A stretch of 40,651 bases of DNA from Clostridia bacterium (lineage in GTDB: Bacteria > Bacillota > Clostridia > Christensenellales > Aristaeellaceae), in NCBI GenBank assembly GCA_017397765.1, contig JAFQIB010000093.1, positions 1 to 40,651 of the forward strand, written 5' to 3'. The notes under the pieces were generated by a model. The model saw nothing but the letters and a program-made list of their open reading frames with translations. It ran no database searches and was not told the origin of the DNA. Made by a program: the position numbers and the translations under genes. The stretch's first letter is position 1; every line of letters starts with the position of its first letter. Below are positions 15,958 through 22,180 of the stretch, piece by piece.

Positions 15958-16006
15958 ACACAGAAAAGAGAGCGCCCTTTCAGACGCTCCCCTGTTGTTG
16001 GTTCCA

Positions 16007-19000
16007 TTAAATCCGGATGATGCCCTCGAAGTCCATCACCGCGTCGCCGGTCATCCAGACCTGGCCGTCTGCCTGGTAACGAACCACCAGCGTGCCGCCG
16101 GGCAGCGCCACGTCGATGTCCGCATCCCGCTTGCACAGGCCGTTCTCGACCGCTGCAACCGCCACAGCGCAGGCGCCGGTGCCGCAGGCCTGGGTCTCCC
16201 CGATGCCGCGCTCCCACACGCGCATGACGATGCTGTTGCCGTCCATGATCTGGGCGAAGGACACATTCACGCGGGCCGGGAACAGCGCATCCTGCTCGAT
16301 CATCGGGCCCACCTGCTGGAGGTTCACCGCGTTCACGTCATCCACAAACATCACCACATGGGGATTGCCCATGGACACGCAGGAGATCTCCCGCATCGCG
16401 CCGCCAAGGTACACGCGGCGCTTCATCACCTTGTCGCCGTCCAGCTTGACGGGAACGTCCGCCGGGGCAAAGGCCGGACGGCCCATGTCCACCAGCACGG
16501 AGAACACCTGATCCTCGCGGATGAAGAGCTTGGCCGCCTTCACGCCGCTGCCGGTCTCAATGCGCATCTCTTCCTTGCGCACGCGGCCGGTCTCATACAG
16601 ATACTTGCACACGCAGCGCAGCGCATTGCCCGCCACGGAGCCCTCGGTGCCGTCCGCATTGAACATGCGCATCTTCGCATCCGCCCGCATGGAGGGCATG
16701 ATGAGGACAATGCCGTCCGCACCGACGCTGCTGCGGCGGTTGGACAGGCGGACTGCCAGGGATTCGGGGCTCTCCACCTGCTGCTCGAAGCAGTCGAAGT
16801 AGAGGTAATCGTTGCCGGTGCCGCGCATCTTGACGAAGGAGAGCTTCTTGGGCTCCTTGCGCATGTTGTTGATGTCCACCAGCTCCACATTGCCCTGGTT
16901 GTAACGGCTGGTCAGCGCGTTGGCAAGGGCATTGGCGGTGTCCAGAGAGGTGAAGAGCGGAATGCCGCGTTCCACCGCCTTGCGGCGCAGCTTCACGGAT
17001 TCACGCAGGGGATCACGGCCCTTGACGGAGGTGGAGATCACATACTGCACCTGGCCCATGGTGAGCATCTGCTCCATGGACTCGTGCTTGACCACGGCGG
17101 AATACACGCCGTGCTGCAGGAGGGTCTGGGCCGTGCCGGTGGTGGCGAAGATGTTGAAGCCCAGCTCCTGGAACTTGCGGGCCACGCCCACGGCCTCGAC
17201 CTTATCCTTTTCGCGGACAGAGATCAGCACGCCGCCGCCCTGACGCATCTTGTAGCCCGCAGCGACCAGACCCTTGTAGATGGCCTCCTGCAGGTTGGTG
17301 CCAAGACCCAGCACCTCGCCGGTGGACTTCATCTCCGGGCCGAGGTGGGTATCCACGTCTGCCAGCTTCTCAAAGGAGAAGCAGGGCACCTTGACCGCGA
17401 AGTAGGGGCTCTGGCGGTACAGACCCGTGCCGTAGCCCATGTCCTTGATCTTCTCGCCCAGCATTGCGCGGACCGCCAGATCAACCATGGGCACGCCGGT
17501 CACCTTGCTGATGTAGGGCACGGTGCGGCTGGCGCGGGGATTCGCCTCAATGACGTACACCTCGTTGTGATAGACGATGTACTGGATATTGATCAGACCC
17601 AGCGTACCCAGCTCCAGGGCGATCTGCCGGGTGACCTCCACCAGACGCTGATACATCGCGCCGGTCAGGTTCCAGGCAGGATAGACCGCAATGGAGTCAC
17701 CGGAGTGGACGCCGGAGGACTCGATGTGCTCCATGATACCGGGGATCAGCACATCCTCGCCGTCGCAGATGGCGTCGGCCTCCGCCTCGATGCCCTTGAG
17801 GTACTGGTCGATCAGGATGGGATTCTCGATGCCCTGGGCCAGGATGATCTTCATGTACTCCACGATATCGGAGTCCTGATAAGCGATGATCATGTTCTGG
17901 CCGCCCAGCACGTAGGAGGGACGCACCAGCACGGGATAGCCCAGCTCATTGGCGGCCTTGAGGGCCTCCTCGGTGGTCATGACCGTGGTGCCCTGGGGAC
18001 GCTTGATGCCGTACTTCTCCATCGCCGCGTCGAAGCGCTCGCGGTCCTCCGCAGCGTCGATCATGTCGGCAGAGGTGCCCAGGATCTTCACGCCCGCATT
18101 CTCCAGCGCGTGGGTCAGCTTGATGGCGGTCTGACCGCCGAAGGCAGCGACCACGCCCACGGGCTTCTCGGTCTCGATGATGCCCAGCACGTCCTCGGGC
18201 GTCAGGGGCTCGAAGTAGAGACGGTCGGCCGTGTCAAAGTCGGTGGAAACAGTCTCGGGGTTGTTGTTGACCAGCACCACGTCGTAGCCCGCTTCCTTGA
18301 GCATCCACACACAGTGGACGGAAGCATAGTCGAACTCGATGCCCTGGCCGATACGGATGGGGCCGGAGCCCAGCACCATCACGCAGGGCTTCTTTTCCCG
18401 CTTGGCGATGAACTCGGCAGCCTCGTTCTCCTCGTCGTAGGTAGCGTAGAAGTAGGGGCGCTGGGCCTCAAACTCCGCCGCGCAGGTATCGACCATCTTG
18501 TACACGGGATTGCGGTGCATGGGGACGGGCGCACCGGAGAGACGCTCGATGGCCTTGTCCGGGAAGCCCATCTTCTTGGCCTTCAGATAGAGTTCCGCGT
18601 CCACATTGCCCTGGGACAGTTTCTTCTCCATATCAGCCAGCTTCTTGAAGTTATTGAGGAAGTACATGTCGATCATGGTGATCTCATGCAGCTTCTCCAG
18701 CGTCACGCCGCGGCAGATAGCCTCGTACACAGCAAACATGCGCTGGTCGGTGCACTTGGCGATCAGAGCCAGCAGCTCCTCGTCGCTCAGCTCCAGCATC
18801 GCCTTCATGCGCAGGGTGTCGCAGCCGATCTCCGCGCCGCGCACAGCCTTCATCAGCGCCTGCTCCACGCTCACGCCGATGGACATCACCTCGCCCGTGG
18901 CCTTCATCTGCGTGCCCAGGGTACGCTTGCCGTAGACGAACTTATCAAAGGGCCACTTGGGCACCTTGGCCACGATGTAGTCCACCGTGGGCTCAAAGCC

Positions 19001-20032
19001 CGCCAGGGTCTTGCCGGTCATGGCGTTGGGGATCTCATCCAGGCTGTAGCCGATGGCGATCATCGCAGCCGTCTTGGCGATGGGATAGCCGGTGGCCTTG
19101 GAGGCCAGCGCAGAGGAACGGCTCACGCGGGGGTTGACCTCGATGACCGCATACTCAAAGCTGTCGGGGTTGAGCGCGAACTGGCAGTTGCAGCCGCCCT
19201 CGACCTCCAGCGCGGACACCATGTCCAGCGCCGCCTTGCGCAGCATCTGGTATTCAGCATTGGACAGCGTCAGCGCGGGCGCGACGACGATGGAATCGCC
19301 GGTATGCACGCCGACGGGGTCGATGTTCTCCATCGAGCAGACGGCGATGACATTGCCCTTGGCGTCGCGCATGACCTCAAATTCGATTTCCTTCCAGCCG
19401 GAGATGCACTTCTCCACCAGTATCTGGGTGATGGGAGACAGGCGCAGACCGGCCTCGGCAATGACCTCCAGCTCCTCGCGGGTCTGGCAGATGCCGCCGC
19501 CCTCGCCGCCCATGGTGAAGGCAGGACGAACGATGACCGGATAGCCGATCTTGTCCGCCAGGGCCAGGGCGTCCTCCAGGGTTTCCACCACGTCGGAGGG
19601 GATGCAGGGCTGGCCGATGGACTCCATGGTCTGCTTGAACAGCAGACGGTCCTCCGCCTTTTCGATGGTCTCGCACTTGGCGCCCAGCAGCTTCACGCCG
19701 TGCTGATCCAGGAAGCCCTCCTTCGCCAGCTGCATGGACAACGTCAGACCGCTCTGACCGCCCAGGGTGGACAGCAGGGAGTCCGGCTTTTCCTTGATGA
19801 TGATGCGGCGCAGGGTTTCCAGGGTCAGGGGCTCGATGTAGATCTGATCTGCAGAGGAATGGTCGGTCATGATGGTGGCGGGATTGGGATTGACCAGCAC
19901 CACCTCAAGGCCCGCCGCCTTCAGCGCCTTACAGGCCTGAGAGCCGGCATAGTCGAACTCCGCCGCCTGACCGATCACGATCGGGCCGGAGCCGATAATC
20001 ATTACTTTCTTGAGCGAAGGATTCAGCGGCAT
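16007..20032 (-). CDS. carB-dapF: Fusion: carbamoyl-phosphate synthase large subunit + diaminopimelate epimerase-like domain
   Basis: One uninterrupted 1341-residue frame. Residues 1-~1058 are a full CarB: first ATP-grasp half (GSGPIVIGQAAEFDYAG, EVNPRVSRSSALASKATG), second half from ~545 (GSGPIRIGQGIEFDYAS, EANPRASRTVPY), the MGS-like allosteric domain from ~930, and the usual end VELVDINNMRK. Residues ~1064-1341 are DapF-like: FVKMRGTGNDY, NADGTEG, MGNPHVVMF, ERGIGETQACGTGACA. In the DapF part Cys1283 is kept, but the other catalytic Cys position is Ala1134 (VAGNALRC). The start at 20032 lies 9 nt after GGAGG and overlaps carA by 10 nt. CarB makes carbamoyl phosphate from bicarbonate, ammonia and two ATP; the adjacent argF points to arginine synthesis. 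The role of the DapF part is unknown. Confidence 0.95.
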   Translation of the reverse strand: MPLNPSLKKVMIIGSGPIVIGQAAEFDYAGSQACKALKAAGLEVVLVNPNPATIMTDHSSADQIYIEPLTLETLRRIIIKEKPDSLLSTLGGQSGLTLSMQLAKEGFLDQHGVKLLGAKCETIEKAEDRLLFKQTMESIGQPCIPSDVVETLEDALALADKIGYPVIVRPAFTMGGEGGGICQTREELEVIAEAGLRLSPITQILVEKCISGWKEIEFEVMRDAKGNVIAVCSMENIDPVGVHTGDSIVVAPALTLSNAEYQMLRKAALDMVSALEVEGGCNCQFALNPDSFEYAVIEVNPRVSRSSALASKATGYPIAKTAAMIAIGYSLDEIPNAMTGKTLAGFEPTVDYIVAKVPKWPFDKFVYGKRTLGTQMKATGEVMSIGVSVEQALMKAVRGAEIGCDTLRMKAMLELSDEELLALIAKCTDQRMFAVYEAICRGVTLEKLHEITMIDMYFLNNFKKLADMEKKLSQGNVDAELYLKAKKMGFPDKAIERLSGAPVPMHRNPVYKMVDTCAAEFEAQRPYFYATYDEENEAAEFIAKREKKPCVMVLGSGPIRIGQGIEFDYASVHCVWMLKEAGYDVVLVNNNPETVSTDFDTADRLYFEPLTPEDVLGIIETEKPVGVVAAFGGQTAIKLTHALENAGVKILGTSADMIDAAEDRERFDAAMEKYGIKRPQGTTVMTTEEALKAANELGYPVLVRPSYVLGGQNMIIAYQDSDIVEYMKIILAQGIENPILIDQYLKGIEAEADAICDGEDVLIPGIMEHIESSGVHSGDSIAVYPAWNLTGAMYQRLVEVTRQIALELGTLGLINIQYIVYHNEVYVIEANPRASRTVPYISKVTGVPMVDLAVRAMLGEKIKDMGYGTGLYRQSPYFAVKVPCFSFEKLADVDTHLGPEMKSTGEVLGLGTNLQEAIYKGLVAAGYKMRQGGGVLISVREKDKVEAVGVARKFQELGFNIFATTGTAQTLLQHGVYSAVVKHESMEQMLTMGQVQYVISTSVKGRDPLRESVKLRRKAVERGIPLFTSLDTANALANALTSRYNQGNVELVDINNMRKEPKKLSFVKMRGTGNDYLYFDCFEQQVESPESLAVRLSNRRSSVGADGIVLIMPSMRADAKMRMFNADGTEGSVAGNALRCVCKYLYETGRVRKEEMRIETGSGVKAAKLFIREDQVFSVLVDMGRPAFAPADVPVKLDGDKVMKRRVYLGGAMREISCVSMGNPHVVMFVDDVNAVNLQQVGPMIEQDALFPARVNVSFAQIMDGNSIVMRVWERGIGETQACGTGACAVAVAAVENGLCKRDADIDVALPGGTLVVRYQADGQVWMTGDAVMDFEGIIRI

Positions 20033-21132
20033 TCCTTGTTACCTCCCATCAGAGCAATAAAGCGGTCGAACAGGAAATGGGTGCCGATCTTGCTGGCGAG
20101 GTTGCCGGCCTGCAGCAGGCCGCCGGTCATCGCGGGCTGGAACTGCACGGAGAAAGCGGGCATGTCCATATAGTCGATGCCCTCGCAGGAGCCGTCGTTG
20201 CGGTTCACAAAGCGCAGGGAGGCATTGTCGGGCAGTGTCGCCTTGTCCACCTCATAGCCGTGGTTCTGGCTGGTGATGTAGCAGGAGCCGGTCTTGATAT
20301 CCTCGATGGGCTGATTGCCGCCGCGGTGACCGTAGGGCAGCTTGGCCGTATCCGCGCCCTGGCTGACGGCCAGCAGCTGATGGCCCAGGCCGATGGCGAA
20401 CAGGGGGATGCGCTTCAGGCACACCTCGCGGATCTCATTGGCGATGCTCTCATAATCCGCGGGGTTCCCGGCGCCGCCGGAAATCACCACGCCGTCGGGG
20501 GCCATGGCAAGGATCTGCTCCGCCTTGATGTTCGCCGGCACAACAGTCACCGCACAGCCGCGGCTCTCCAGCTGGAAAAGGGTATCCGCCTTCGCGCCCA
20601 GATCCCACAGCACCACCTTGTACGCGCCTTCCTTTTCGGCAGGCACGATCTCCTTGACGGAGGTGGCGGCCAGATCTGCCTTGACGCCACAGAGTGCAGC
20701 GGCGGCGGCCTGGATGTCTTCAGGCTTCTCGGTGAGGATTGCAGCCTGCATCACGCCATGATCCCGCAGGTGACGGGTGATGGCACGGGTGTCCACATCG
20801 GTCAGGCAGGGAATGCCGTTTTCCGCCAGGTACTGTTCCAGCGTGCCCTCGCAGCGGAAGTTGCTGGGCGTATCGCACAGCGCCCGGCAAACATAACCGC
20901 TCAGGCTGGGCTTCGCCGCGTCTGCCGCCACCGGCACAACGCCGTAATTACCGATCTGAGGGAAGGTCTGAACAACGATCTGCCCCGCATAGGCCGGATC
21001 GGTCAGGGTATCCATATAGCCCACAACAGAGGTCAGGAATACTGCTTCACCCGCAGCTGCCTTGTCAGCGCCGCGCAGCACGCCCTCATACAGCCGGCCG
21101 TCCGCCAGCAAGAGGTAGCCTTTCTTTTCCAT
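20023..21132 (-). CDS. carA: Carbamoyl-phosphate synthase small subunit, glutaminase triad lost
   Basis: The 369-residue protein has the CarA N-terminal domain (GYMDTLTDPAYAGQIV, IGNYG, DVDTRAITRHLR) and a class I amidotransferase fold (~172-369). All three catalytic positions are changed: the nucleophile Cys of GxCLGHQ is Gly248 (FAIGLGHQ), and the His and Glu of QYHPE are Gln332 and Ala334 (VQFQPA). Structural motifs around them (GHRGGNQP, SQNHGYEVD) are kept, so this is a folded pseudo-glutaminase. It probably supports CarB structurally while ammonia is taken from solution, as in vertebrate CPS I. The ATG at 21132 lies 9 nt after GGAGG; a TTG two codons earlier is less likely. Confidence 0.94.
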   Translation of the reverse strand: MEKKGYLLLADGRLYEGVLRGADKAAAGEAVFLTSVVGYMDTLTDPAYAGQIVVQTFPQIGNYGVVPVAADAAKPSLSGYVCRALCDTPSNFRCEGTLEQYLAENGIPCLTDVDTRAITRHLRDHGVMQAAILTEKPEDIQAAAAALCGVKADLAATSVKEIVPAEKEGAYKVVLWDLGAKADTLFQLESRGCAVTVVPANIKAEQILAMAPDGVVISGGAGNPADYESIANEIREVCLKRIPLFAIGLGHQLLAVSQGADTAKLPYGHRGGNQPIEDIKTGSCYITSQNHGYEVDKATLPDNASLRFVNRNDGSCEGIDYMDMPAFSVQFQPAMTGGLLQAGNLASKIGTHFLFDRFIALMGGNKECR

Positions 21133-21151
21133 GCTCAATTCCCTCCAGTAT

Positions 21152-22054
21152 TTATTTCATGCAGGCGACCAGAACAGCCTTCTGCGCATGCAGCCGGTTC
21201 TCCGCTTCGTCAAAGATCTCATCGGCATGGGCCTCAAAGACCTCCTCGGTGATCTCCTCGCCGCGGTGCGCAGGCAGACAATGCTGCACCATGCAGCCCT
21301 CGTGGGCAACAGACAGCAGCGCCGCGTTCACCTGATAGCCGGCGAAGGCCTTCTCGCGGGCAATGCGCTCCTCCTCCTGGCCCATGGAGGTCCACACGTC
21401 AGTGAAGATCACGTCCGCATCCTTGGCGGCCTCCAGGGGCTTATCGGTCATGAAGAACTGACCGGGGTACTGCTCGGTGAAGGCCAGCACCTCTGCATCG
21501 GGCTGATAATCCTTCGGGCAGGCGATGGAAACATGCGCGCCGACCTTCAGGAAGCCCACGATCAGGGAGTTGGCCATATTGTTGCCGTCGCCGATGTAGC
21601 ACATGTTGACGTCCAGGCGGCCCTTGTGCTCCCGCACCGTCTGCAGGTCCGCCAGCACCTGGCAGGGATGGCAGAAGTCGGTCAGACCGTTGATGATCGG
21701 GATGGAGCCGTACCTGGCCAGATCCTCAACCTCCTGCTGGGCAAAGGTGCGGATCATAATGCCGTCCAGATACCGGCTCAGCACGCGGGCAGTATCCTGC
21801 ACGGGCTCGCCGCGGCCGATCTGAAGATCGCGGTTGGACAGGAACAGCGCATTGCCGCCCAGCTGGTACATACCCGTCTCAAAGCTGACGCGGGTGCGGG
21901 TGGAGGACTTGGAGAAGATCATGCCCAGGGTCTTGCCCTTGAGCAGCGGATGGGGAATGCCGGCCTTGTTCTCAGCCTTGAGCTTGTCCGCCAGATCCAG
22001 CAGCTCAACGATCTCTTCCTTGCTCAGATCCAGGAGCTTCAGCAGGTGCTTCAT
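21152..22054 (-). CDS. argF: Ornithine carbamoyltransferase
   Basis: The 300-residue enzyme joins carbamoyl phosphate and ornithine to give citrulline. SSTRTR (50-55) binds carbamoyl phosphate, HPCQ is at 129-132, and HCLP (258-261) supplies the Cys that contacts ornithine. DGNNMANS marks the ornithine-binding SMG-loop region. The ATG at 22054 is about 10 nt after GGTGGA; a GTG five codons earlier is less likely. It is the first gene of argF-carA-carB-dapF, so carbamoyl phosphate made by the next two genes is probably destined for arginine. The complete active site argues for anabolic or reversible use; no arginine deiminase or carbamate kinase gene is nearby. Confidence 0.95.
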   Translation of the reverse strand: MKHLLKLLDLSKEEIVELLDLADKLKAENKAGIPHPLLKGKTLGMIFSKSSTRTRVSFETGMYQLGGNALFLSNRDLQIGRGEPVQDTARVLSRYLDGIMIRTFAQQEVEDLARYGSIPIINGLTDFCHPCQVLADLQTVREHKGRLDVNMCYIGDGNNMANSLIVGFLKVGAHVSIACPKDYQPDAEVLAFTEQYPGQFFMTDKPLEAAKDADVIFTDVWTSMGQEEERIAREKAFAGYQVNAALLSVAHEGCMVQHCLPAHRGEEITEEVFEAHADEIFDEAENRLHAQKAVLVACMK

Positions 22055-22180
22055 ACGGGATAATTCCACCTTTCTGTATTGAAAGAATCAGGGATTTCAT
22101 CATCACAGATCCCGCCGCCAAGCAGAATTTTCCAGCTTTTCCGGCATGCGAAATCAGGTGCTCCTTCGCACCCATCCTGC

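Follow-up and report, generated by a model that had tools for sequence, protein, structure and literature searches.

What does the small subunit of carbamoyl phosphate synthetase (CPS) do when the residues of its glutaminase are gone? The question is raised by the carA gene of a Clostridia bacterium of the Aristaeellaceae, which lies at 20023..21132 on the minus strand of contig JAFQIB010000093.1 (assembly GCA_017397765.1; the whole stretch analyzed, 40,651 nucleotides, is called the window). Its product has 369 residues, counted from ATG 21132, and lacks the catalytic Cys, His and Glu. We consider it highly probable, from sequence comparison, that this CarA is a glutaminase-dead subunit retained for its structure in an ammonia-fed CPS, within a wider switch of nucleotide amination. 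Such an enzyme would depart from the accepted picture: the consulted part of a review gives glutamine as the donor used physiologically by E. coli CPS and, by extension, by all bacterial CPS (PMC6245113). Genomes, contigs and loci are cited below by G, C and L numbers.

The active site of CarA and its decay

The segment FAIGLGHQ of the window CarA aligns with FGICLGHQ of the E. coli CarA chains in the PDB, which places Gly248 (codon GGC, 20389..20391) at the catalytic Cys269. Against the same chains, VQFQPA aligns with the HPE segment, with Gln332 (CAG, 20137..20139) at the catalytic His353 and Ala334 (GCG, 20131..20133) at the catalytic Glu355. Alignment and codon readback, all on the minus strand, thus confirm the loss of the entire triad reported in the preliminary description of this DNA. 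With Gly-Gln-Ala the protein falls outside the glutamine-hydrolyzing class I amidotransferases, marked by Cys-His-Glu, and by sequence it has the character of the CPS I type, in which the catalytic Cys is gone and the remaining glutaminase part is kept. The change of Ser47 to Ala47 (GCC, 20992..20994, minus strand, by the same alignment and readback) was missing from that description, as were the strand and the fusion of carB with dapF; we take Ser47 of E. coli CarA to be a glutamine-contact residue.

The surrounding motifs had been called intact and the gene uninterrupted and coupled to carB, and both statements hold. The dead CarA still passes the full-length NCBIfam model TIGR01368, a curated model named for glutamine-hydrolyzing CPS, with 353.2 bits against a cut-off of 307.35, and the first 10 bases of carB lie within its uninterrupted minus-strand reading frame. 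The start was taken as ATG 21132 because the residue numbers of the preliminary description fit it; TTG 21138 (frame 20023-21138, minus strand) is the alternative. Sequencing error as the origin of the triad changes was rejected, since the changes are common to related genomes.

Conservation was scored in 28 dead representatives, at the 79 columns whose conservation among 152 intact rows reaches 93% or more. Median column retention in the latter is 93%. The lowest values (E. coli numbers) fall on Cys269 (0), His353 (29%), Ser47 and Ile205 (37% each), followed by Asn240 (43%), Lys202 (44%) and Glu355 (48%). We read these seven columns as the glutaminase pocket; Ser47 and Lys202 presumably have roles there in E. 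coli CarA, and Ile205 and Asn240 were assigned to it by sequence neighborhood. With the window counted twice, Ser47 is Ser in all 154 scored rows that keep the Cys, against 12 of the 48 scored rows without it. Across 15 independent starred-branch pairs, loss of Ser47 goes with loss of Cys in 9.1, runs opposite to it in 0 and shows no difference in 5.9 (median p 0.004).

Outside the pocket the protein is well kept. Leu270, adjoining the catalytic Cys, remains in 45 of 49 Cys-less rows (window counted twice). The ratio of nonsynonymous to synonymous substitution rates (dN/dS) of CarA lies between 0.06 and 0.29 in 12 dead pairs; of the 12 intact pairs, 11 give a defined value, between 0.02 and 0.31. 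These and the divergence pairs below are a small, hand-picked set. No internal stop occurs in any listed Cys-less CarA. The genus-wide trait described below, the pocket-specific decay and the purifying selection support the earlier proposal that glutamine hydrolysis was lost long ago while the structural role remained; so do the failure to see a substitute nucleophile in the alignment and to find another CarA in the genome of the window.

Spread of Cys-less CarA and number of losses

That the triad loss might be a trait of the clade was borne out by alignment: 15 of 18 genomes of the genus, the window's included, carry a Cys-less CarA. Lower-scoring rows were not listed in this survey of relatives, and its counts hold among the matches listed. 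For one further member, G008, a genome 87% complete, no CarA is among the matches listed. The Gly-Gln-Ala combination is common to nine members including the window, and the second and third triad positions across the genus are Q/A, M/Q, L/Q or Q/E. Besides the window, 25 of 99 CarA rows lack the Cys, 14 in the genus and 11 in the family or order; the latter, a set not picked by residue, have Gly in nine cases, Ser in one and Ala in one.

A class-wide draw of 391 genomes was scanned by the codon pattern before LGHQL. A non-Cys codon stands there in 113 genomes; 18 of the 28 Gly-codon places opened besides the window fall in CarA, and one of the 12 non-Gly places fetched, a subset of places only, is a CarA with Asp at the site (L144). 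Among the 30 loci accompanying this first scan, four hold CarA, all repeats of ones already counted. The scan for other T-codons gave 35 of the 391 genomes, and 30 of its 38 places were retrieved, two of them being CarA with Ser. The Cys form of the pattern occurs in 155 of the 391 genomes, part of it possibly not CarA. As for 80 named relatives, 78 have C-H-E, one is incomplete (L161), and Ruminococcus sp. FC2018 (L169) has G-D-E. Several record titles of the closest named relatives mention gut samples of sheep, goat, deer or rabbit.

The combined alignment has 204 rows; L227 duplicates the window, which leaves 203 distinct rows, and no other pair is identical. Shorter repeats (L001, L013, L073, L081, L085, L092, L093) had been removed beforehand. 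Of the distinct rows, 155 retain the Cys (152 with C-H-E, two incomplete, and L257 without His and Glu) and 48 do not (43 Gly, 3 Ser, 1 Asp, 1 Ala), but since rows were partly picked for absence of the Cys, these counts are no frequencies. In 17 of 22 further Cys-less genomes a whole-genome search (E value 1e-30) shows no other CarA.

Some Cys-less copies stand apart. Strongly diverged ones, L237 (G119), L254 (G073) and L249 (G022), coexist with the intact L236, L022 and L071, respectively, and may have a separate role. The genus member G004 has an extra intact CarA on contig C103, together with a distant carB that lacks a DapF match. G004 has 7% contamination, and C103 is taken as probably foreign.

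The trait was mapped on trees of CarB, since CarB does not itself carry it. L072, L127 and the duplicate L227, which have no usable CarB, were left out, as were, deliberately, near duplicates and part of the distant intact rows. FastTree with 121 rows and an IQ-TREE quick tree with 96 rows both give 19 changes, and a larger tree of 124 rows, 36 of them dead, gives 22. Soft collapse of branches below 80, 90, 95 and 99 in the Shimodaira-Hasegawa-like approximate likelihood ratio test leaves 21, 20, 15 and 7 changes. Scoring L257 as dead gives 23 maximal all-dead clades, and 19 of these have Gly throughout. Glutaminase loss in CarA arose repeatedly, and independently of CPS I.

Gly is one of seven single-step missense changes from a Cys codon and yet dominant, which argues that it is favored; Gly rows were also sampled more heavily. 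The geometry of the nucleophile elbow at the catalytic Cys is strained, and relief of this strain suggests itself as the reason for the preference. Among the matches listed, a search of titles and abstract starts in the open PMC literature found no report of a Cys-less bacterial CarA. Some 15 to 22 losses would offer natural replicates for asking what CarA is for without its chemistry, how the channel is fed from solution, and why Gly is preferred.

Nitrogen supply and rival explanations

The genome that holds the window comprises 3.13 Mb in 158 contigs and is 89% complete. One CarA and one CPS large subunit were found in it, and no second large subunit. The search for another carA suggested in the preliminary description returned no other CarA from this genome; the remaining candidate for an intact copy, on C78, is a C26-type hydrolase. 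Carbamate kinase, another source of carbamoyl phosphate, had no match in the genome. With a single CPS and no carbamate kinase, the CPS of the window is thus the sole supplier of carbamoyl phosphate identified for the arginine and pyrimidine pathways. Three carbamoyltransferase matches occur in the genome, argF of the window, pyrB and a third gene. The third, carbamoyltransferase-like gene lies directly after hisH-hisF on L229 (G000:C41:4631-5029, plus strand).

GMP and CTP synthetases normally carry a glutaminase domain (PF00117). The window's genome has three PF00117 matches, CarA, HisH and the C26-type hydrolase, and as both synthetases are missing among them, they were searched for directly in 25 genomes. 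The GuaA of the window's genome consists of 331 residues, the synthetase part only, with no glutamine amidotransferase (GATase) domain, and no separate GATase subunit (PF00117) was found for it in that genome. Such a short GuaA occurs in 12 of 16 searched genus genomes, in one of them ended by the contig edge. Two genomes of the order, G079 and G080, have short forms as well; for these two, no CarA is among the matches listed. Full GuaA with the Cys and His motifs was found in G002, G014 and G004 (suspect contig C103), and G003, G005 and G009 yielded only a second GuaA-like protein. In the window's genome this second protein (L357:928-2379; G000:C45:1927-3378, plus strand) has a decayed glutaminase part, and in the six aligned the Cys is replaced by Gly and the His by Pro, Leu or Gln.

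PyrG was found in four of the 16 searched genus genomes, G002, G004 (C103), G007 and G014. In G007, whose CarA is dead, its Cys is replaced by Gly with His and Glu kept; in G002 it has the Cys, and the sequence available for the frame stops short of the His. No glutaminase-competent GuaA or PyrG was found in 12 of the 13 searched genus genomes with Cys-less CarA, the exception being G004, whose C103 holds a full GuaA and a full PyrG. G002 and G014, with intact CarA, keep a competent GuaA, and G014 also a competent PyrG. A simple rule is contradicted by G078 of the order, which combines a Cys-less CarA with a full GuaA and has no PyrG match. In the window's genome HisH still shows the motifs of all three triad residues, Cys, His and Glu, so the switch from glutamine to ammonia is incomplete.

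These data are best accommodated if the dead CarA is kept beside the intact CarB for a structural, possibly ammonia-gating, role. The complex would make carbamoyl phosphate from bicarbonate, two ATP and free ammonia. Being the sole CPS found, it would feed both ArgF and PyrB. The change of Cys to Gly probably came first, removing the strained nucleophile elbow, and His, Glu, Ser47 and Lys202 may then have drifted. Genus-wide, nucleotide amination would have moved from glutamine to ammonia, with GuaA stripped of its glutaminase domain and PyrG either not found or, in the dead-CarA genome G007, changed from Cys to Gly, and the cells would probably build arginine and nucleotides from free ammonia. 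That the window CPS uses free ammonia, as had been proposed, is inferred from sequence, and the parallel disappearance of glutaminase function from GuaA and PyrG within the genus strengthens the proposal. E. coli CarB makes carbamoyl phosphate from ammonia, according to the consulted part of PMC6245113. The combined loss predicts a nucleotide supply dependent on environmental ammonia.

Several observations weigh against this reading. According to the same review, ammonia serves E. coli CPS only when its concentration is very high (PMC6245113), so that a better Km for ammonia or an ammonia-rich habitat would be needed here. Two genus members, G002 and G014, have only intact CarA, and five of the 22 further Cys-less genomes (G426, G165, G229, G461 and FC2018) have a second CarA with Cys and HPE. 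The degenerate GuaA-like protein is also present in the intact-CarA genomes G002 and G014, and G014 has a Cys to Gly PyrG beside its intact one. The absences of PyrG, carbamate kinase and a second CarA are provisional, because most assemblies are fragmented, that of the window's genome being 89% complete. Finally, the CarA/CarB divergence ratio spans 3.0 to 6.5 for the nine dead pairs of the genus and 1.5 to 4.6 for the other three dead pairs; two mixed pairs have 2.4 and 3.2, and the 12 intact pairs range from 1.7 to 5.4. In 8 of 12 dead pairs, versus 3 of 11 intact pairs, dN/dS of the GATase part exceeds that of the N-terminal part. Fast divergence and the GATase values together indicate a partial relaxation of constraint, stronger in the GATase part, but no loss of it.

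The last two measures would also suit carA as a decaying relic, with CarB working alone on ammonia and CarA on its way out, and G008, 87% complete and without CarA among the matches listed, could be a genome where that had happened. We regard such decay as unlikely, since the listed Cys-less genes have no internal stop, dN/dS is well below 1, the conserved columns keep their 93% median, and the gene persists after all these losses. Glutamine could instead stay the donor if a separate glutaminase docked on the dead CarA or replaced it and fed ammonia to CarB in trans. HisH and the C26-type hydrolase of the window's genome do keep their Cys, and an ammonia relay between proteins is conceivable; however, both match families with roles of their own, and a search restricted to the PF00117 family gave three matches in that genome, of which CarA itself is the only one in the car operon. 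A helper in trans is therefore very unlikely.

It would be more surprising still if a different residue had taken over and the subunit still hydrolyzed glutamine or another amide. Three Cys-less rows have Ser at the catalytic position, counterparts of E. coli His272, Gln273 and His312 persist in the majority of rows, and the Cys columns 109 and 368 are frequent in the genus but seldom seen among the intact rows overall. Gly, however, has no side chain, and Ser47 and Lys202 erode as well. The two Cys columns were rejected as replacements because, though typical of the genus, they also occur in the close full-triad relatives L034 and L053. Another Cys/His pair filling the site, which the preliminary description had named as refuting its claim, did not appear either, as no substitute nucleophile is seen in the alignment.

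Beyond the retained, glutaminase-dead CarA itself, a broader reading seems to us about evenly balanced: Clostridia would have dropped glutamine for ammonia in CPS many times, the switch in the genus would have hit CarA, GuaA and PyrG together, mostly by Cys to Gly change or domain loss, and the dead CarA would be a port or lid for ammonia. If it is true, bacterial CPS is not generally glutamine-dependent.

Comparison with known systems and the car operon

The preliminary description had likened the enzyme to vertebrate CPS I. The likeness would lie in function, and fails for kinship and architecture: CPS1 is a fused eukaryotic enzyme with Ser at the Cys site and a Gln that blocks the tunnel. 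The consulted part of PMC4655335 reports that human CPS1 keeps the glutaminase domain, has Ser294 in place of the Cys, and takes ammonia from solution. The window CarA likewise keeps the glutaminase part without the catalytic Cys, and its ammonia use would be analogous. However, the window enzyme is made from two genes, carA and carB, with CarB fused to DapF, and so lacks the single chain of the vertebrate family; its Cys became Gly rather than Ser, and the His and Glu are lost too. The tunnel-blocking Gln of CPS1 corresponds to E. coli Gly293, a position that is Ala in 21, Gly in 19 and Ser in 5 of 49 Cys-less rows, with Phe in one dead row. A CPS1-like block is thus no rule: whether dead or intact, most rows have Ala, Gly or Ser there.

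E. coli CarAB (CPS II) shares with the window enzyme the protein families, the operon, the gate residues of CarB and the CarA motifs outside the pocket, and differs in that the window CarA lacks the triad and the glutamine-contact residues. For fish CPS III, the accessible text of PMC7657897 describes a turn towards ammonia by loss of one glutamine-binding residue while the triad stayed intact, which parallels the loss of Ser47 in Cys-less CarA. The short GuaA of the genus resembles the ATP pyrophosphatase subunit of two-subunit archaeal GMP synthetase in being the synthetase part alone, but no separate PF00117 GATase subunit was found in the window's genome. In its consulted part, PMC10526850 describes bacterial GMP synthetases as two-domain proteins, and a short, partnerless bacterial GuaA therefore seems unusual; the same part states that studied synthetase parts can use external ammonia.

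All genes of the operon are on the minus strand. The argF gene for ornithine carbamoyltransferase (21152..22069, TIGR00658) lies directly upstream of carA. The carB gene for the CPS large subunit (16898..20032) forms residues 1-1045 of a fused frame and matches the large subunit along its whole length. We take Cys232, Ala251 and Ala314 to be the ammonia-gate positions of E. coli CarB, and Cys, Ala and Ala are kept there in the window CarB. The human CPS1 counterparts are Cys648, Ala667 and Ala729 in the consulted part of PMC4655335.

A dapF domain (16007..16840, minus strand; TIGR00652, residues 1065-1339) follows CarB in the same frame, fused to its C-terminus. CarB and DapF share one frame in 32 of the 40 loci L033-L072, beside intact and dead CarA alike, and titles and abstract starts in the open PMC literature gave no report of such a fusion among the matches listed. 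The carB of G057 (L050:1825-5991) reads as two adjoining frames, covering CarB residues 1-723 and 726-1045, with a dead CarA upstream. Antisense to carB-dapF runs an open frame of 1392 residues (window 15995-20173, plus strand), which is probably a by-product of codon composition.

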